From positions 1 through 31,846 of IMG/VR virus record IMGVR_UViG_3300031857_000850: DNA of 31,846 nt. One strand, 5' to 3'. This document shows positions 11,451 through 21,744 of this stretch, piece by piece. How positions within the stretch are numbered: position 1 is the first letter of the stretch; each line of letters starts with the position of its first letter. The notes under the pieces are model-generated. The model did not search any database and was not told the origin of the DNA. It was given only the letters and a program-made list of their open reading frames with translations. This DNA is from a virus. The translations under genes and the position numbers were made by a program.

Positions 11451-11640
11451 CTGGCTTCCCTTTAATCAGATCGACGAGTTCGGAATACGCTGCTTTGCTA
11501 TGTTCGTGCGTCTTGGCCATGACAACCTCGCGAGCGACTGACGCGATGTGGTCTAGCCTGCGGAGCATTGCAGCAGCTTCATTGTGGCGCGGATCAGTGG
11601 CTGTCTCGTCCAGCCACGCGGCCATAAACTTAGGGTTCAC
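11443..11640 (-). CDS. Small helical hypothetical protein, GTG start
   Basis: A 65-residue helical protein (NPKFMAAWLDETATDPRHNE, MLRRLDHIASVAREVV). It begins at a GTG overlapping the TGA of the helicase gene (GTGA) and is preceded by GGAGGAG at ideal spacing, so the non-ATG start is well supported. An in-frame ATG five codons later lacks such a site. No domain was recognised. Its coupling to the helicase suggests co-expression, with no evidence for direct interaction. Confidence 0.65.
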   Translation of the reverse strand: MNPKFMAAWLDETATDPRHNEAAAMLRRLDHIASVAREVVMAKTHEHSKAAYSELVDLIKGKPDA

Positions 11641-12974
11641 TTTAACTCCTCCAAGGCAATATCAGAAATCGCGCGCTTGTCATGCAACGCGCCCCAAATC
11701 TTCTCGTCGATCGTTTTCTCGGTCAGCATCACATAGCACCAGACTGCTTTTGTTTGTCCGGAACGGTGCAGCCTTCCAATCGTTTGCTCGTACAGCTCCA
11801 GTGACCACGGCAGCGACAGAAATACGATGTGGCAGCCTCCGTGTTGTAGATTAAGTCCGTGACCTGCCGACTTTGGGTGAAGTAAGAGCTTCTGAATTTC
11901 ACCTCGGTTCCACCGCTCGACCACGTTCGGCGTATCCATCGTCGCAGCCTGCGGATAACGGCGACGAAGTTCTGCAAGCTCCTCCTGATAAGAGTACGCA
12001 ATGATCGTGTTCGCATGTTGGTTTTCCTCTAGTAGTTCGTCCAATCGATCAAATTTGTGGCTGCTAAACCAATGGGCTGTCTGAGTATTCTTAAACTTAC
12101 CGTAATCCTCCAGCGCCTCTCGCTGCGTCTCGTAGACAAAACCAGACGCCATCTGTTGCAGTTTTCCAGTCACAACCGCCGCGTTTGCAGCAATCGCCTG
12201 CGCGTTAGGAAACTCGACAACGAAATCGCGCTTCATTTTGTTGTAGAGCGTATAGTCCATCGTCCCGCGCACCTCTACGATGTTTAATGGCGGCAGTTTG
12301 TCCTTGTACTCGCCAGCATCCAGCAGGTACGTCGCGGGTTTGATCTTCTGCATGACCAACTCCAGCGCACCGCGTCTGGGCGACCAGTCACCGAAATCCC
12401 GGTTCGTGCAGACAAAATATTGCTGCAAGAAGGCGCCCTTGCTGCGACCTAAGAGCGACTGGTCGATGATCTTGCACTGGCCGAAGACATCTTCCAGACC
12501 GTTGGACGTGAACGATCCGGTCAGGCCCCAGCGAATCTTGATGTGTTCGATCGCTTTGAAAAGCGCCTTAAACCGCTTGCCGGACGGGTCTTTTAGCCTG
12601 GTCAGTTCATCAAAGACGATCGCATCGAACCGGCTTAGACCGTAATCGGCCAGCCATTGCAGGTTGTCGTAGTTAATGACTACAAAGTCAGCAGTTACGC
12701 TCTCGACCGCACGCAAGCGATCTTTAGGTGAGCCAACGGCTAACGCCAGGCGCAGTGATGGCGTCCATTTTGGTGCCTCAACGGGCCAGACGTCGGTGCA
12801 TACGCGTTTGGGAGCGACAACCAAGAAACGGCTAGCCACACCATCGTAAATGGCGTCCCTCATGGCGGTCAGCGTGATCGCGGTCTTGCCAGCTCCCACG
12901 GGCGCTAAGATCATCGCCCGATCGCGCTCGTAAAGGAAATCAGCGGCCTCTTCTTGGTACGGGCGGAGTTTCAT
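11637..12974 (-). CDS. SNF2/DEAD-type helicase
   Basis: A 445-residue superfamily 2 ATPase. Visible motifs in order: Q-like LRPYQEEAADFLYER, Walker A APVGAGKT (Lys30), motif Ia LVVAPKRVC, Walker B as DELTRLK, motif III LTGSFTSN, motif V SAGHGLNLQHG and motif VI QTIGRLHRSGQ with the arginine finger. The DELT box and HRSGQ motif are typical of SNF2-like phage helicases used in replication or recombination. The start was set at MKLRPYQ; two upstream in-frame ATGs add residues that do not look like the family and overlap another frame. The Shine-Dalgarno signal is weak, so translation probably relies on coupling to the upstream small gene. Confidence 0.88.
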   Translation of the reverse strand: MKLRPYQEEAADFLYERDRAMILAPVGAGKTAITLTAMRDAIYDGVASRFLVVAPKRVCTDVWPVEAPKWTPSLRLALAVGSPKDRLRAVESVTADFVVINYDNLQWLADYGLSRFDAIVFDELTRLKDPSGKRFKALFKAIEHIKIRWGLTGSFTSNGLEDVFGQCKIIDQSLLGRSKGAFLQQYFVCTNRDFGDWSPRRGALELVMQKIKPATYLLDAGEYKDKLPPLNIVEVRGTMDYTLYNKMKRDFVVEFPNAQAIAANAAVVTGKLQQMASGFVYETQREALEDYGKFKNTQTAHWFSSHKFDRLDELLEENQHANTIIAYSYQEELAELRRRYPQAATMDTPNVVERWNRGEIQKLLLHPKSAGHGLNLQHGGCHIVFLSLPWSLELYEQTIGRLHRSGQTKAVWCYVMLTEKTIDEKIWGALHDKRAISDIALEELK

Positions 12975-13083
12975 TGATTTTGCGTCCGAAAAATAGATCA
13001 TGCAGGTTGCGGGTGTTTTGCTTCTCCCACTCTTTATTCTTACGTGCCCTTTCAGCACGTTCACGTTCATACCGCCAGTTCAT
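12940..13083 (-). CDS. 47-aa basic helical protein overlapping helicase start
   Basis: A 47-residue frame beginning MNWRYERERAERARKNKEWE and ending PPVPRRGR. It has GGGAGAAG before its ATG, and the ATG overlaps the stop of the upstream gene (ATGA), like every other junction in this operon. Its last 35 nt overlap the start of the helicase in another frame. The ribosome site is better than that of the helicase, which suggests it is translated and delivers ribosomes to the helicase start. The strongly basic content is compatible with nucleic-acid binding. No family recognised. Confidence 0.55.
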   Translation of the reverse strand: MNWRYERERAERARKNKEWEKQNTRNLHDLFFGRKINETPPVPRRGR

Positions 13084-14454: not shown

Positions 14455-14483
14455 TTGACAAGCGGTTTTTTGCCCGCTATGCT
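14455..14483 (+). promoter_or_regulatory. Sigma70-type promoter for replication operon
   Basis: A perfect TTGACA (-35, 14455-14460) is followed by 17 nt and TATGCT (-10, 14478-14483). The spacer contains an inverted repeat AGCGG-N8-CCGCT between the two boxes, a possible operator. The predicted transcript would start near 14490 and reach the well-spaced GGGAG ribosome site of the first gene at 14517. Confidence 0.7.
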
Positions 14484-14516: not shown

Positions 14517-14696
14517 ATGAATGTAGAAGACATTTTTGATGCGGACGGCGCAGCCTTACAGGCCGCATTAGACCTTATTGAGGTCATCCTTGAGACCGAC
14601 CCTGGCGTTTACGACGAAACGGCTGCGCCAGTAGTGCTGCTGTTACGTCAACGACTGTCTAGTTCGTGGCGTAACGAACCGGCGAGGGCTAAATAA
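14517..14696 (+). CDS. Small acidic hypothetical protein, first gene of replication operon
   Basis: A 59-residue acidic protein (MNVEDIFDADGAALQAALDL) ending in a basic tail (SSSWRNEPARAK). The start is the ATG with GGGAG nine to ten bases upstream; longer in-frame versions run through the promoter and are rejected. The stop overlaps the next start (TAATG), so the two are translationally coupled. The gene precedes a DUF2800-type nuclease in many phages with the same module, but I recognise no domain. Confidence 0.62.
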   Translation: MNVEDIFDADGAALQAALDLIEVILETDPGVYDETAAPVVLLLRQRLSSSWRNEPARAK

Positions 14697-15814
14697 TGGC
14701 TCACTCCAATATCGTCGGGGGCAGCACCGCCAAGCGCGTCATCGCCTGCCCTGCATCTGTCAAGCTCTGCCAGCAGATGCCCCCGCAGATCGAATCCGAG
14801 CACGCAGCGCGTGGGACGCTACTGCACAACGTCATGGCTGAACTCTTGGAGTTCGACAAAAAACCCGAGCAGATGATCGGCGCTACTTACAAAACCCAAG
14901 TTCTGACACAGGAGCTAATCGATGAGAAGGTTATACCCGCTCTGGAAGCACTCCAGGAGATTGACCCAGACAATCAAATGTACTATATGGTCGAAACCCG
15001 AGTGGGGTTTGGAGATTTTCTTCCTGATGTATTCGGTTCTACTGACTTACTGGGTCGTATTGGCAGCCGGGCTATTGTTCTCGACTGGAAATTCGGTGAC
15101 GGGGTTCTTGTTGACGCTGACGATAATCCCCAGCTGCTATTTTATGCGGCGGCAGCTATGCGTACTCCATCGGCCAAGTGGGTTTTCGAGGGTGCCGATG
15201 AGATTGAACTCATCATCGTCCAACCTCCAGCAATCCGGCGCTGGGTCACTAATCGCGCGCGGGTTGCTAATTTCGAACTCCAGCTCTTACGAGCCGTCAC
15301 GCAAGCGCTTCGTCCTGATCCGCTAATGCAAACCGGCGACCATTGTCGCTGGTGCACTGCAAAACCGATCTGCCCTGAGATGAACGGCGAAGTTGATCGG
15401 GCGCTGAAAACGCAGCTCTCAGCACTGCCAGCCGAGCAAATCAGCATCATGCTAGGCCAAGCTGACCGCTTGGAAGACTTCATTAAAGACCTGCGCGCGC
15501 TGGCGTTTAATATGCTCGACAAAGGCCACAAGGTGCCAGGCTACAAACTGGTCGCCAAGCGTGGCACGCGTCAGTGGGCGGACGAAAACGACGCTGCTAT
15601 ATGGATTTCTAGTCAAGGTATTGCACCATACAAAGAACAAATTCTTTCGCCTGCACAGGCGGAAACTGCGCTGAAAAAGCGTAAAATCAAACTTCCGGAC
15701 GAGCTGGTTACATCGGTGTCGTCTGGCAGTACCTTGGTGCCGGAGAGCGATCCCCGTCCTGAGGTTCTTCAAATTGGCAAGCAGCTCGCTGCTGCCTTAT
15801 CTAAACTACAGTAA
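14696..15814 (+). CDS. DUF2800 Cas4/AddB-like Fe-S nuclease
   Basis: A 372-residue PD-(D/E)XK nuclease of the DUF2800 type. Residues in order: Cys18 in IACPAS, His44 in GTLLHNVMAELL, Asp117 in STDLLGR, the D-x-K pair Asp130/Lys132 in VLDWKFGDG, QxxxY (Gln146, Tyr150), then a cysteine cluster Cys217, Cys220, Cys226 in HCRWCTAKPIC. Cys18 with the three C-terminal cysteines matches the 4Fe-4S site of Cas4 and AddB nucleases. It probably trims DNA ends during recombination-dependent replication. It sits upstream of ssDNA-binding-like, polymerase and primase genes, the usual context for DUF2800. Confidence 0.88.
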   Translation: MAHSNIVGGSTAKRVIACPASVKLCQQMPPQIESEHAARGTLLHNVMAELLEFDKKPEQMIGATYKTQVLTQELIDEKVIPALEALQEIDPDNQMYYMVETRVGFGDFLPDVFGSTDLLGRIGSRAIVLDWKFGDGVLVDADDNPQLLFYAAAAMRTPSAKWVFEGADEIELIIVQPPAIRRWVTNRARVANFELQLLRAVTQALRPDPLMQTGDHCRWCTAKPICPEMNGEVDRALKTQLSALPAEQISIMLGQADRLEDFIKDLRALAFNMLDKGHKVPGYKLVAKRGTRQWADENDAAIWISSQGIAPYKEQILSPAQAETALKKRKIKLPDELVTSVSSGSTLVPESDPRPEVLQIGKQLAAALSKLQ

Positions 15815-15825
15815 AGGATCATCAA

Positions 15826-16071
15826 ATGGAATCTGATACAGTACCAAATAGACCGCTTTCTTTTGGTGAAAAAGCGGTTGGGATTACTTTCAATCCAGGT
15901 CAAAGTCATGAGGTTCACAAATGCAAAAAAGAATTTGCGGATGTAATTGACCGCATGAATTATTTGCGTGAGCAATCGTTTGACCCTGAAGTAAAGCGTA
16001 TGGCGTCTATTGCAATTACAGAAGCGCAAACCGCGCAGATGTGGGCAGTTAAAGCTATTACGTGGAAGTAA
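15826..16071 (+). CDS. Putative Acb2/Tad1-hairpin cyclic-nucleotide sponge
   Basis: An 81-residue protein with two helices. The pattern GEKAVGITFNPGQS, then EFADVIDRMNYLREQ, then MASIAITEAQTAQMWAVKAITW resembles, from memory, the helical hairpin shared by the Acb2 (anti-CBASS) and Tad1 (anti-Thoeris) phage proteins. Those proteins sequester cyclic di/trinucleotides or cyclic ADP-ribose derivatives and so block defence signalling. The C-terminal MWAVKA helix is the most recognisable part. AAGGA precedes the ATG. It lies between nuclease and ssDNA-binding-like genes, so it should be made early, as an anti-defence factor must. The family call is recognition without a search, and ligand specificity cannot be told. 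Confidence 0.55.
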   Translation: MESDTVPNRPLSFGEKAVGITFNPGQSHEVHKCKKEFADVIDRMNYLREQSFDPEVKRMASIAITEAQTAQMWAVKAITWK

Positions 16072-16114
16072 TAAATTCAATTAACTACAGTAAAGTCTAA
16101 GAAAGGACACTACT

Positions 16115-16738
16115 ATGTCATTCGCACTCGCAAATCTTCCTCCTGTTTCTTCCCTGTCTGTCGCTCTGCGCACCCTTGAGAAAGACGTCGGCGCTGTTGG
16201 CTCCGTCATTCTGAAGATGGACAAAGGCGGCCATTGGATATACGGCGCTGAACAAACTGAAGTCGAGTCTGACAGCACGTGGGCAGTCAATCCATTCTCT
16301 TTCATCCACGGTTATATCGCGTGGGGTGATGGTGAAGTCCTTGGCGAAATGATGGTGCCTGTCACCGAACCAAAGCCTGAACTGCCACCTGTGCCACACG
16401 GCGCAAAGAAAGGCTGGGAAGTACAAGTGGGCATGTCGCTGAAGTGCCTGTCAGGCCCTGATAAGGGTCTGGAAGTGCGCTACACGACAACTTCAGTGGG
16501 CGGCAAGCGCGCTGTCAATACGCTGGGCGTGGCAATCGCCGCTCAGTGCGAGACAACGCCGGGCAAGCCTGTGCCGGTCGTTGCCTTGAAAAAGGACAGC
16601 TACCAGCACAAGTCCTACGGCAAAATCTACACGCCGGTCTTTGAGATCGTCGAGTGGGCGTCAATGGATGGCCAGACTGAAGACGCAGAAGAAGGCAAAG
16701 AAGAGGCGGCACCCGCACGCCGTCGTCGTTCGGCCTAA
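16115..16738 (+). CDS. Probable single-stranded DNA-binding-like replication protein
   Basis: A 207-residue protein with beta-strand-rich blocks (WAVNPFSFIHGYIAWGDGEV, TSVGGKRAVNTLGVAIAAQ, KSYGKIYTPVFEIVEW) and a flexible tail that turns from acidic (DAEEGKEEA) to basic (ARRRRSA). In phage modules of the order DUF2800 nuclease, this gene, polymerase, primase, the slot is commonly held by a DUF2815-type or other ssDNA-binding protein. The strand-rich fold and the low-complexity tail suit such a role, but no diagnostic motif is visible. AAAGGAC precedes the ATG. Confidence 0.5.
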   Translation: MSFALANLPPVSSLSVALRTLEKDVGAVGSVILKMDKGGHWIYGAEQTEVESDSTWAVNPFSFIHGYIAWGDGEVLGEMMVPVTEPKPELPPVPHGAKKGWEVQVGMSLKCLSGPDKGLEVRYTTTSVGGKRAVNTLGVAIAAQCETTPGKPVPVVALKKDSYQHKSYGKIYTPVFEIVEWASMDGQTEDAEEGKEEAAPARRRRSA

Positions 16739-16802: not shown

Positions 16803-17381
16803 GTGAGTACCCCACCTATTCCTATGAAAATACTTATTGCTTGCGAATATAGCGGCAGAGTGCGCGACGCCTTCATCCGGCGTGGGCATGATGCTATAAG
16901 CTGTGATTTGTTGCCTACTGATGCGCCTGGGCCGCATTATCAGGGTGATGTCGCTGATATTCTTAACGACGGGTGGGACATGATGATTGCTCATCCCCCT
17001 TGTACTCATCTGGCAGTGAGCGGCGCTAGGCACTTTGCTGCTAAACGCGAAAGCGGAGTACAGCAAGAGGCGCTTGACTTTGTTCGACTGTTATTAGAAG
17101 CGCCTATCGAGCGTATTGCGCTTGAAAATCCTGTATCAATAATTAGCAGTCATATACGCAAGCCCGATCAGATTATTCAGCCGTGGCAGTTTGGCCACGG
17201 TGAAACCAAGGCAACTTGCTTATGGCTTAAAAATCTGCCGAAATTGCAGCCTACTAATATTGTAGAGGGGCGAGAGGCGCGTATTCACAAAATGCCGCCT
17301 AGCGCAGATCGATGGAAAAAGCGCAGCGAAACTTACGAGGGTATTGCTAACGCAATGGCAGCGCAATGGGGTGGTAAATGA
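16803..17381 (+). CDS. Cytosine-C5 DNA methyltransferase-like protein
   Basis: A 192-residue protein of the short phage cytosine methyltransferase-like family. Motif I is represented by ILIACEYSGRVRDAFIRRGH, motif IV by MIAHPPCTHLAVSG with the candidate catalytic Cys, and motif VI by ERIALENPVS. A C-terminal region follows with KPDQIIQPWQFGHGETKAT and CLWLKNLP. It is much shorter than Dcm or M.HhaI (over 320 residues) and has no recognisable target-recognition domain. It may modify phage DNA against restriction or act on nucleotides. The start is either GTG here or the ATG at 16824, where the family similarity begins; neither has a strong ribosome site. Confidence 0.72.
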   Translation: MSTPPIPMKILIACEYSGRVRDAFIRRGHDAISCDLLPTDAPGPHYQGDVADILNDGWDMMIAHPPCTHLAVSGARHFAAKRESGVQQEALDFVRLLLEAPIERIALENPVSIISSHIRKPDQIIQPWQFGHGETKATCLWLKNLPKLQPTNIVEGREARIHKMPPSADRWKKRSETYEGIANAMAAQWGGK

Positions 17382-19348
17382 ATGTTTTGTTTGCGGATTT
17401 CGAAACTAGGAGTCGATGTGACCTATTATCTCGTGGCGGGTACAACTACAGTCTTGATGCAAGCACATCAATTCTCTGCTTTTCCTACGCACTTAACGAT
17501 GATGAAGTACAGACTTGGGTTCCCGGACAGCCGTTCCCCGAGAGTGTTAGTGAACATATTAGACAAAACGGGCAACTCAGATTCCATAATGCGGGTTTTG
17601 ATAGGCAAATATTCTGGAACGTCTTATGCCAAGATTTCGATGTACCAAAACCTAAACTCGAACAGTTCTACTGCACCGCTGCGCAGGCGCGTGCTAACTG
17701 CTTACCGGGAAGCCTTGAAGACGTCGGACGAGCCATCAGTAGTCAGATGCGAAAAGACCATCGCGGCTCACAGCTTATTCGACTTTTGTCAATCCCACGG
17801 GCAGACGGCACCTTCAATAACGACCCCGCGTTAATGGCCGAGATGATTCGCTACTGCGAGCAGGACGTTCGAGCCATGCGAGCCGTATCGAAAGCCATGC
17901 GCGACCTGTCGGATGACGAGCTGGCCGACTATCACGTCAACGAGCGCATCAACGACCGTGGTGTGCTGCTGGACAAACCGCTGGCTGAAGCGGCGATCAA
18001 GTACGCCTCAGTCGAGCTGGAAGAGATCGAGTCGCTGGTGCAGGAACTGACCGAAGGCGAGATCACGTCTGTGCGCAGTCCGCGCATGAAGGCGTGGGTC
18101 ATGGAGCGGGTCGGCCCACAAGCGCTTGAGATGATGGTAACGTACAAGGACGGCGAGAAGAAATACTCGATCGATAAATCTGTGCGAGCGAACTTGCTCG
18201 CGTTTGCGGAGGAAAATCCCGATGAGATTCCGGCCCATGTTGCGGACGTCATTCAATGCGCAGATGATTTATGGGCGTCCTCGGTTGCGAAGTTCAGCCG
18301 CCTTAGCGAGCTGGCAGACGAAGACGATCACCGAGTACGAGGTGCGTTTGTCTTCGCAGGCGGATCAGCTACCGGACGAGCTTCAAGCTATGGTGCGCAG
18401 GTTCACAACTTCACCCGAAAGTGTGCCGATGATCCCGACGCTGTTAGGCACGCTATGGTGCGAGGGCACGCCATCGTCCCACGATTTGGACGTCGCGTTA
18501 CAGATGTTCTACGTGGAATGCTCCGGCCCGCACTGATACCCGCCGAAGGTAAGAAATTCGTCGTTGCAGACTGGTCAGCTGTTGAGGCTCGCGTTACCGC
18601 ATGGGCCTCAGCTGATCCGCAAGCCGAGTCGGTGCTGGATGTCTTCCGGGAAGGCCGCGACATTTACAAGCGCGAAGCGGTTGGCATCTACCACGTACCA
18701 GAAGACCAGATCACCAAAGACCAGCGCCAGATCGGCAAGGTCGCTGTTTTGTCGCTCGGCTTTGCAGGCGGCATTGGTGCGTTCTCAGCGATGGGTCGCA
18801 ATTACGGCGTCTTCATGGCTGAGTCAGACGCCAAGCGGATCGTCGACGCATGGCGGCGCGCGAACTCATGGGCAGTGCGCTACTGGCAAAAGCTCGAAGA
18901 GGCGTACACGCGAGCGCTTCGCAACCCAGGGCGTGAGTTCTCAGCTGGGCGTGTGACGTATTTGTACGATGGCCAGCATCTCTGGTACGCGCTACCAAGC
19001 GGTCGCATTCTATGTTATCCGTTCGCTAAGTTTGACGGCGACGAGATAACGTATGTCAAGGCGGCATGGAAACCGGCAGCTGATGCGAAAGAATGGCCAC
19101 GTGCGCGCTTGTGGCGAGGGCTGGCCTGTGAGAACATAACGCAAGCGATCGCGAACGATCTGTTACGGCATTCTTTACGCCAGCTTCCGGAGACTGTACT
19201 GCATGTGCACGATGAAATCGTTCTCGAATCCGCAGCACCAGAAATTTCTGCAACAAAACTCCAGCAAGTAATGTGCACGCCGCCCGACTGGGCGCAAGGA
19301 CTGCCGTTGTCTGCTGAAGTCGAAATAATGAGTCGTTACGGCAAATAA
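17378..19348 (+). CDS. DNA polymerase, family A, with 3'-5' exonuclease
   Basis: A 656-residue replicative polymerase. The N-terminal exonuclease shows Exo I as ADFETRS (Asp7, Glu9), Exo II as LRFHNAGFDRQIF and Exo III as YCEQDVRAM. The polymerase domain has motif A VVADWSAVEAR (Asp398), motif B KDQRQIGKVAVLSLGFAGG and motif C HVHDEIVLE (Asp612, Glu613). All catalytic acids are present, so it should be active and proofreading. No 5'-3' exonuclease domain is present. The start overlaps the methyltransferase stop by ATGA. Directly after the stop codon lies a terminator-like hairpin separating it from the primase gene. Confidence 0.95.
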   Translation: MNVLFADFETRSRCDLLSRGGYNYSLDASTSILCFSYALNDDEVQTWVPGQPFPESVSEHIRQNGQLRFHNAGFDRQIFWNVLCQDFDVPKPKLEQFYCTAAQARANCLPGSLEDVGRAISSQMRKDHRGSQLIRLLSIPRADGTFNNDPALMAEMIRYCEQDVRAMRAVSKAMRDLSDDELADYHVNERINDRGVLLDKPLAEAAIKYASVELEEIESLVQELTEGEITSVRSPRMKAWVMERVGPQALEMMVTYKDGEKKYSIDKSVRANLLAFAEENPDEIPAHVADVIQCADDLWASSVAKFSRLSELADEDDHRVRGAFVFAGGSATGRASSYGAQVHNFTRKCADDPDAVRHAMVRGHAIVPRFGRRVTDVLRGMLRPALIPAEGKKFVVADWSAVEARVTAWASADPQAESVLDVFREGRDIYKREAVGIYHVPEDQITKDQRQIGKVAVLSLGFAGGIGAFSAMGRNYGVFMAESDAKRIVDAWRRANSWAVRYWQKLEEAYTRALRNPGREFSAGRVTYLYDGQHLWYALPSGRILCYPFAKFDGDEITYVKAAWKPAADAKEWPRARLWRGLACENITQAIANDLLRHSLRQLPETVLHVHDEIVLESAAPEISATKLQQVMCTPPDWAQGLPLSAEVEIMSRYGK

Positions 19349-19392: not shown

Positions 19393-21744
19393 ATGGACTT
19401 TTTTGAGTATATCGCAAATCTTGCCCCAGAGGGCGAGACGGCGCTGTTTGTGCGACAGACGCCTATGAAGAAAAACGGCGAGCTGCAATTTCACGCCGAC
19501 GGAGCAATTAAGGCTACATGGCCATCATTTTTTCCTAATCACAAACGCAAGGACGGCGAAGCTTGGTACGGCAACACGGCCAGCTTCATCATTGACCGCT
19601 TCGGCGAGAAACCCAGCGCTAGTGCGGCTAATTGCGAGTACGTGCTCGTCATGGTGCTGGACGATGTGGGCGATCCAGCCAAGGCACCGAAGCTGCCGCC
19701 GCTGGCGCCGACTTGGATCATGGAGACGTCGCCCGGATCGTTCCAGTGGGGCTACGCCTTCTCAGAACAACCGACAAAATCCGACTTCGCCGCCGCGATC
19801 AAGGCGATCGCAGCTGCTGGCTACACTGACCCGGGCGCCTGCAACCCGGTGCGCAACTACCGCCTGCCTGGCAGCGTCAACTTGAAACCCGGCAAGAATG
19901 GCTTCAAAGCCAAGCTGATCGAATTCAACCCCGAGCAGGAATACACCCTCGAATATATCTGCGCAGCCTTGCAGGTAACGCCCGAGGAGTCGTCATCGCT
20001 GGGTGTGACGCCCATCAAATTGAAAGACGACGGTGGAGACGACGTCTTCCGGTGGCTCAACGATCAAGGGCTAATCCTGCGCAAACCCAATTCCGAGGGC
20101 TGGGCTGGCGTCGTCTGTCCCAATAGCGCCGAGCATACCGACGGCAATCCGGAAGGGCGCTACAACCCGTCCGCGCGCGCCTACTGCTGCCTGCACTCGC
20201 ACTGCTTGGAGCTGGACTCGACGACATTCCTGAACTGGGTAGCCTTGCAGGGCGGGCCTAAACACGAGCCGGGTGTCAGGGACGAGCTGATCGCCAGCAC
20301 GATGAGCGCGGCATTGGAAAAGCTAAATCCCGAGGCGGCGGCTGAGATGTTCACCGAGACGCCCGAGGCGGTGCTGGCTGAGATCGAGCGCAAGGAACTC
20401 GGGCGGCTGGAGAAGGCTGGCTGGTTTGAGCGCTTCGCGTATATCCAGACAGACGACTGCTATTTCGACCTGCAAGATCGCCGCGAGGTCGCCCGCTCAA
20501 CCTTCAATGCGCTGTTTAGGCATATCGACTGCACATCGATTCACTCGGCGCGCAAGGTCGAGGCCTCAGTCGCTTACGACCAAAACCGCGAGGCGATGGG
20601 CGCCAAGACGCTCTTAGGCGTCACCTACGCGGCAGGCGAAGGGCTACTGGTAGCACGCGACGGCGGCATTTACGGCAATCGCTGGCGTGACGCCCGCCCG
20701 GCAATCGTGGGCGCTGCAGGCACCGCCATGAGCGTCAAGCCTTGGCTAGACCATGTCGAGCGCATGATCCCGACCGACTTCGAACGCGAGCATTTCTTGA
20801 ACGTGCTGGCTTACAAAATCCAAAACCCGAACCGCAAGATCAATCACGCAGTGCTTATTGGTGGCTACCCTGGCAGCGGCAAGGATACGATGCTGGCGCC
20901 CTTTTTCTGGGCTATTGGCGGAGACTCGAAAGCGAACTGTTCACTGGTCAGGAACGAGGATTTATCGTCGCAGTGGGGCTATGCGCTTGAGTGTGAGGTC
21001 ATGGAAATTGCCGAGCTGCGGCAAGCCGAAGCCCGAGATCGACGCGCGCTTGAGAACAGCTTAAAACCCATCATCGCAGCGCCGCCCGAGTTTTTGCCTG
21101 TTCACAGAAAAGGCCTGCACCCGTACGAAAGCTTAAACCGGGTGCTGGTGATTGCGTTTACGAACGAGCGTGCGGCCATATCAATACCCTCGGACGACCG
21201 GCGATGGTTTTGCCTTTGGTCGGATGCCGGACGTTTACCGGAAGCGGACGCCCAGGCTTTGTGGGGCTGGTACAAGGGTGCCAATTCGGCAAACTTAAAC
21301 CTAAACTCGGGAATGGCGGCTGTTGCGGCTTACCTGCGCGCTCGGGACGTGTCGAACTTTAACCCAGGGGCGACGCCGCCAATGACCGAAGCCAAGGCGA
21401 TCATGATCGACCAGGGCCGATCGACGGCCGAGTCTTACCTAGTCGAACTCATCACCGGGCGCTTGGGCGAATTCGCCTCAGGCGTCATTGCATCGCCCTT
21501 TTATGCGCTTTGCGACCGGCTGGCGGGCGCCGCTCCGACGGGCGCGAAAATCCCGCAAGTAGCGCTTTTGCACGCGCTCCGCGAAGCAGGCTGGATCGAC
21601 TGCGGGCGCATACACTCGCACGAATTCCAGACTAAAAAGCACATTTTCTGCGCGCCTGAGCTTGCGGGCAAACCGCGCGCGGCGCTTCGGGCAATGGTCG
21701 AATCGGTGCCAGCGCCAGCTGCGGTTAAGCTTGTAAAAGGGTAA
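19393..21744 (+). CDS. Primase-helicase (RepB-like primase plus SF3 helicase, DUF5906)
   Basis: A 783-residue fusion. The N-terminal third looks like a RepB-type primase (TWIMETSPGSFQWGYAF, CNPVRNYRLPGSVNLK). A zinc-binding region at about residues 242-275 has CPNSAEH and YCCLHSHC. The C-terminal half is an SF3-type helicase with Walker A IGGYPGSGKDT (about residues 489-499), followed by CEVMEIAELRQ and VLVIAFTNERAA, then ISIPSDDRRWFCL, features of DUF5906 and VapE-like proteins. It would prime and unwind DNA for the polymerase encoded upstream. It is the last gene of the rightward replication operon and meets the leftward small-gene operon tail-to-tail. Confidence 0.88.
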   Translation: MDFFEYIANLAPEGETALFVRQTPMKKNGELQFHADGAIKATWPSFFPNHKRKDGEAWYGNTASFIIDRFGEKPSASAANCEYVLVMVLDDVGDPAKAPKLPPLAPTWIMETSPGSFQWGYAFSEQPTKSDFAAAIKAIAAAGYTDPGACNPVRNYRLPGSVNLKPGKNGFKAKLIEFNPEQEYTLEYICAALQVTPEESSSLGVTPIKLKDDGGDDVFRWLNDQGLILRKPNSEGWAGVVCPNSAEHTDGNPEGRYNPSARAYCCLHSHCLELDSTTFLNWVALQGGPKHEPGVRDELIASTMSAALEKLNPEAAAEMFTETPEAVLAEIERKELGRLEKAGWFERFAYIQTDDCYFDLQDRREVARSTFNALFRHIDCTSIHSARKVEASVAYDQNREAMGAKTLLGVTYAAGEGLLVARDGGIYGNRWRDARPAIVGAAGTAMSVKPWLDHVERMIPTDFEREHFLNVLAYKIQNPNRKINHAVLIGGYPGSGKDTMLAPFFWAIGGDSKANCSLVRNEDLSSQWGYALECEVMEIAELRQAEARDRRALENSLKPIIAAPPEFLPVHRKGLHPYESLNRVLVIAFTNERAAISIPSDDRRWFCLWSDAGRLPEADAQALWGWYKGANSANLNLNSGMAAVAAYLRARDVSNFNPGATPPMTEAKAIMIDQGRSTAESYLVELITGRLGEFASGVIASPFYALCDRLAGAAPTGAKIPQVALLHALREAGWIDCGRIHSHEFQTKKHIFCAPELAGKPRAALRAMVESVPAPAAVKLVKG

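Follow-up and report, generated by a model that had tools for sequence, protein, structure and literature searches.

Known members of the Acb2/Tad1 hairpin family (Pfam PF24729) are phage sponges which sequester cyclic di- and trinucleotides and, in the case of Tad1, also gcADPR (PMC12043709). Acb2 is found in PaMx33/PaMx35-type phages (PDB 8H2J) and as Vs.4 in phage T4 (PDB 7UQ2), and takes the form of a homohexamer with cyclic di- and trinucleotides as ligands; Tad1 is an inhibitor of Thoeris. It is encoded by a short stand-alone gene, giving a product of about 74-110 aa, and its layout has been described as a short N-terminal helix followed by a helical hairpin (PMC12043709, PMC10419184). 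By one account, Acb2 is comparatively rare and confined to particular groups of phages (PMC11722364). In the T4 protein, exchange of a tyrosine (Y8A, the same tyrosine as Y11 of the PaMx-type proteins) gives a binding-deficient mutant (PMC12657230), and binding is lowered by T68M (PMC12657230) and by F82C (PMC12657218). Tad1 from a Clostridium botulinum prophage (PDB 7UAV/8SMD) has an extra N-terminal antiparallel β-sheet domain before the helices (PMC12043709), with solved chains of 123-138 aa. A further group of hairpin phage proteins, the MWANAAIA branch, has 'Acb2 homolog 43' (PDB 9PTQ) as its nearest solved structure. The sponges Acb4 and Tad2 are also known, and Acb4 is without structural homology to Acb2, Tad1 or Tad2 (PMC11722364).

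The window, that is, the whole stretch of 31,846 nucleotides analysed here (IMG/VR virus record IMGVR_UViG_3300031857_000850), carries at 15826-16071 (+) a gene for an 81-aa protein of this hairpin family, for which a role as cyclic-nucleotide sponge is proposed. The protein is of a size with Acb2, a helical hairpin is likewise predicted for it, and both have the C-terminal helix pattern A/G-x-T-x-x-Q-x-x-x-M-W/x-A-x-R/K, whereas the N-terminus reads GEKAVGxxFNP in place of GYRDLSQEEI...N..K. It has the PF24729 domain in common with Tad1, as well as a similar MW-containing helix motif, seen via the profile of the MWANAAIA branch, but it is shorter than the solved Tad1 chains and its model contains no strand. 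The MWANAAIA branch is of the same length class and has the same hairpin and the motif T-x-(L/A)-(E/Q)-x-A-x-MWA; the two groups differ at both ends, with F-T-Y-H-x-P against GEKAVGxxFNP at the N-terminus and IARNE against ITW at the C-terminus. Acb4 and Tad2 share with the window protein the proposed mode of action, sequestration, and no sequence link to either was found. Judged by its N-terminal segment, the protein falls outside Acb2 proper, and the missing β domain places it outside Tad1; it can still work like either of them.

Coding status and family membership

The ORF comprises 246 bases, translates into exactly 81 aa and contains both motifs quoted in the preliminary description. It starts 11 nt past the stop codon of the upstream DUF2800 nuclease gene, and a Shine-Dalgarno-like AAAGGA, read directly from the sequence at 15813-15818 (+), lies 7 nt before the ATG and overlaps this stop codon. 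On comparing the gene with seven relatives, pS was found to be 0.69-1.0, which is near saturation, and pN 0.08-0.14. Hence, it is a real protein-coding gene under purifying selection. No sigma-70-like match was found between the nuclease gene and the ORF, and the sole upstream match on the + strand lies at 14455-14483; such matches were no commoner than in shuffles.

The PF24729 profile matched the window protein with E=2.8e-11 and 43.9 bits, above the curated cut-off of 27. The match spans residues 35-79, equivalent to profile positions 21-57 of 58, and the same profile was matched by all of the relatives aligned with the window protein (33/33). When a profile of the window relatives was compared by hhalign with 36 Acb2 proteins (PaMx-type and T4), a probability of 93% was obtained (E=3.1e-7), with an alignment that begins only at residue 35; the hairpin alone aligns, and a full-length alignment was not obtained. 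The earlier assignment to the Acb2/Tad1 hairpin family was thus upheld by both kinds of profile comparison, and by sequence the protein is a member of PF24729. The window subfamily also aligns with the MWANAAIA branch (hhalign, E=9.2e-5), the profile of which matches both 'Acb2 homolog 43' in the PDB (E=5.9e-6) and Tad1 (E about 0.005). As this branch matches on both sides, the window subfamily, Acb2 and Tad1 are linked via a common hairpin.

In PHROGs, the window protein matched phrog_717 and phrog_14434 only, both of unknown function, and PADLOC and NCBIfam searches gave nothing relevant. A phmmer search of the PDB with the single window sequence returned chance matches only, the subfamily profile matched nothing among PDB sequences but T4 Vs.4 at E=0.13, and no subfamily member with a solved structure was detectable by sequence search of the PDB.

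N-terminal signature and predicted fold

The signature GEKAVG-x-x-FNP occupies residues 14-24 (15865-15897, +) in the subfamily alignment and is absent from proven Acb2. In the preliminary description, KAVGITFNP was taken as part of the Acb2 signature, and here the Acb2/Tad1 reading had to be corrected: it stands for the hairpin, but neither for this motif nor for the N-terminal positions of Acb2. In the alignment of 36 Acb2 proteins, G10, Y11, E17, I19, N23 and K26 are invariant, and the segment G-Y-R-D-L..E-x-I..N..K that holds Y11 and K26 is neither aligned nor present in the window subfamily; no aligned counterpart of Y11, N23 or K26 was found there by hhalign. EAQTAQMW is nearly invariant, in part because searches were seeded with that peptide, and the N-terminal motif was therefore judged only on loci obtained from C-terminal seeds. 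GEKAVGxxFNP is retained in these loci, which come from bacteria of several phyla, and the signature is also kept in the distant phages Aaphi23, PS3 and Flavobacterium phage FCV-1.01. Hence, it was concluded from these alignments that KAVGITFNP is the marker of a separate subfamily and not of Acb2. A Pasteurellaceae sub-branch (L112-L115, L400) reads FNV where the others have FNP, and (I/L)DAQMWAV where they have TEAQTAQMWAV.

On aligning all branches together with MAFFT, the N-termini were placed ambiguously, so that no residue equivalence is claimed for Y11; it can only be guessed that the dinucleotide-binding tyrosine of Acb2 (Y8 in T4, Y11 in PaMx-type proteins) has its equivalent in the invariant F22, or in F13. 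Helix 1 of the hairpin covers residues 28-50 (15907-15975, +) and contains the invariant V30 and K34 (AlphaFold2 model and subfamily alignment), and helix 2 covers residues 54-79 (15985-16062, +; SIAITEAQTAQMWAVKAIT), within reach of both the hhalign alignment and the PF24729 match. The Acb2 pattern T-x-x-Q-x-x-x-M-x-x-x-R/K-A/G is present in the window protein when aligned ungapped with T4 Vs.4; T65, W73 and K76 correspond to T68, W76 and R79 of T4 Acb2, and the C-terminal F82 of the latter falls beside T79/W80.

The AlphaFold2 model (mean pLDDT 92.8) has helices at residues 13-17, 28-50 and 54-79, that is, a short N-terminal helix and two long antiparallel helices, in agreement with the hairpin expected beforehand. 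A Foldseek search against BFVD, which holds predicted viral proteins, gave Acb2/Tad1-hairpin phage proteins as the top two matches (E=7e-4 and 1e-3), the first of which, from phage PS3, itself belongs to the window subfamily. Against the PDB, the window model retrieved no Acb2, no Tad1 and no sponge. For control, an Acb2 with the sequence of 8H2J was modelled from locus sequences only, with the T4 Vs.4 row left out; this model retrieved Acb2 with E about 1e-11 and T4 Acb2 with E about 2e-3, and neither Tad1 nor 9PTQ was among the best 50 matches listed. Since the control misses these family members among the listed matches, the result for the window model would speak at most against a close structural likeness to Acb2, and not against membership in the family.

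Distribution and proposed function

Relatives of the window protein are encoded by 272 viral-contig stretches. The GEKAVGxxFNP subfamily is represented both among phages and among prokaryotic genomes from several phyla, and the branch is carried by phages or prophage-like loci of Pseudomonadota, Bacteroidota, Actinomycetota, Acidobacteriota and Saccharibacteria (phyla as named in the records). Phages that are unrelated carry it as a short stand-alone gene, and its surroundings vary. In phage DSL-LC05, it follows TerL at a distance of one small gene and precedes the portal gene, in phages Pmp11 and Aaphi23 it adjoins the terminase small subunit gene, in phage PS3 it lies between two genes for virion-interior proteins and in phage EcP1 among early small genes. 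Neighbours at 55-56 loci on each side include terminase, exonuclease, SSB, spanin, tail, ribonucleotide reductase and integrase genes. As a measure of co-occurrence with CBASS, a SMODS nucleotidyltransferase was found over the cut-off in 4 of 25 carrier genomes, a count that has no comparison set and is uninformative. Avibacterium paragallinarum NCTC11296 has five loci (L091, L093-L096), each with 65% identity to the query, which suggests several related prophage copies.

The reading preferred here, with a probability of roughly three in four, is that the gene product, a small and divergent representative of the Acb2/Tad1 hairpin family, acts as a stoichiometric cyclic-nucleotide sponge against CBASS, Thoeris or a similar system and that the gene is carried as moron-type cargo. 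The helical hairpins would assemble into an oligomer, which would bind cyclic (oligo)nucleotides or alarm molecules of the gcADPR type; with these sequestered, the effectors of CBASS, Thoeris or related systems would not be activated. The high conservation would suit binding of an invariant small molecule, and the cargo-like distribution fits counter-defence.

The protein could instead bind another nucleotide that is not a CBASS or Thoeris signal, for example a housekeeping second messenger, and so retune host physiology. Most of the N-terminal part is unlike Acb2, the β domain of Tad1 is absent, the signature is highly conserved across phyla and known members of the family bind a variety of cyclic nucleotides (PMC12043709), all of which would agree with such a ligand; however, all characterised hairpin-family relatives that were found are anti-defence sponges, and the distribution also speaks for counter-defence, which makes such a ligand unlikely. 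No published binding data for the GEKAVGxxFNP subfamily were found in the literature covered.

Within the sponge reading, a wider proposal is put forward tentatively: the GEKAVGxxFNP proteins may form one more, widely distributed lineage of hairpin sponges, in which the end that binds the ligand has been rebuilt and the range of ligands departs from that of Acb2 and Tad1. An immune signal for which no sponge has yet been described is possibly among these ligands, and the gene may have spread between phages in a small cassette whose insertion duplicates the junction. If the branch does sponge immune signals, the hairpin strategy would be much commoner than thought for Acb2, and the replaced N-terminus would allow the evolution of ligand choice on a single small scaffold to be tested directly.

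Apparent insertion into the replication operon

In the window, the operon begins with a gene for a DUF2800 / PD-(D/E)XK (Cas4/RecB-like) nuclease (14696-15814, +; DUF2800 E=5.5e-59 and PDDEXK_1 E=4.9e-13 in Pfam), followed by the sponge candidate and a gene for a 207-aa SSB-like protein (16115-16738, +), the name of which rests on operon context, phrog_9528 being its only PHROG match. A DNA-methyltransferase-like gene (16803-17381, +; phrog_757, E=1.4e-74) and genes for a family-A DNA polymerase (17378-19348, +) and a primase/helicase (19393-21744, +; DUF5906, RepB-like primase domain) follow. The gene had been described as lying between a Cas4-like nuclease and a polymerase, which is right for the nuclease and loose for the polymerase, since the SSB-like and methyltransferase-like genes intervene. 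In this phage the gene does stand within a replication operon, but the family as a whole does not share that placement.

The junction was surveyed in the 80 viral contigs whose DUF2800 relatives scored best; 79 of these contigs had a readable junction. The DUF2800 gene directly abuts the SSB-like gene in 78 of these, none of the 79 has the sponge gene there and one holds a different ORF of 75 aa. The sponge gene was found at the same junction in three further contigs (L003, L004 and L007), which came from the sponge search; as carriers and non-carriers were drawn from different searches, 78/79 is no estimate of prevalence. In a DUF2800 tree, the four carriers stand in three places and three changes are needed in all bootstrap trees, which would fit repeated gains at one site, with one gain followed by losses as the alternative.

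The gene is flanked by two exact copies of the 13-bp direct repeat AACTACAGTAAAG, whereas 3000 shuffles gave no match longer than 10 nt. The left copy (15804-15816, +) spans the last codons and the stop of the DUF2800 gene, and the right copy (16083-16095, +), after the sponge gene, is a duplicate of that gene end. A comparable repeat is present in L003 and L004 (a copy of CTAAACTTYAATAAGGTAA) and in L007 (of AAAGGAACGGTA). Part of this similarity could be due to common ribosome-binding sites; the copies in the window and in L003 nonetheless include DUF2800 codons. Flanking repeats are no general mark of the family, with only a handful beyond chance among 86 loci. In L028 and L103, which have unrelated contexts, 14-nt direct repeats lie just before the start codon of the sponge gene and just after its stop.

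It was thus concluded that the sponge gene is cargo and not replication machinery, on the basis of the empty junction in 78 of 79 relatives, the low GC3 (34%, with a GC of 41.5%, against a GC3 of 43-72% in seven other window genes), the flanking repeat, the three places in the tree and the varied contexts. A moron-type gene would have been inserted between two tightly packed replication genes together with a copied junction and ribosome-binding site, and would therefore probably be expressed early, from the replication operon. Pairs of empty and filled junctions show how counter-defence genes may enter a tightly packed essential operon. In L377 (4119-4395), the DUF2800/SSB junction holds a different, cysteine-containing ORF of 75 aa with a similar leader copy downstream, and the junction may thus serve as a site where small cargo genes are inserted.

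These data bear on a second alternative, namely that the protein works within the replication/recombination module, as a part of it or as its regulator (an adaptor for the nuclease, the SSB-like protein or the polymerase, for instance), and resembles the sponges in fold only. The gene is co-directional with the operon at a gap of 11 nt, and upstream neighbours of its relatives (n=56) include exonucleases (phrog_69, 3; phrog_2139, 3) and Cas4-like proteins (phrog_1706, 3), with ssb genes also adjoining; yet almost all relatives of the module do without it, and elsewhere it is found beside terminase, virion, lysis, tail and ribonucleotide reductase genes, so that a replication role is largely refuted by the presence/absence pattern and is very improbable. 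That the gene is a sponge gene in decay or already inactive, as the unrecognisable Acb2 N-terminus might suggest, is scarcely credible given the strong purifying selection (pN about 0.1), the complete ORF with its ribosome-binding site and the conservation of the signature in loci found independently of it.

The methyltransferase-like gene at 16803-17381 was detected in only 6 of the 80 operons of DUF2800 relatives and is therefore probably a second cargo gene. In L023, where the context is otherwise unrelated, a homologue with 72% identity precedes the sponge gene by about 0.8-1.3 kb. Upstream of the operon, the window has a DEAD/SNF2-type helicase gene (11637-13070, -), a homologue of which is found near most DUF2800 relatives.
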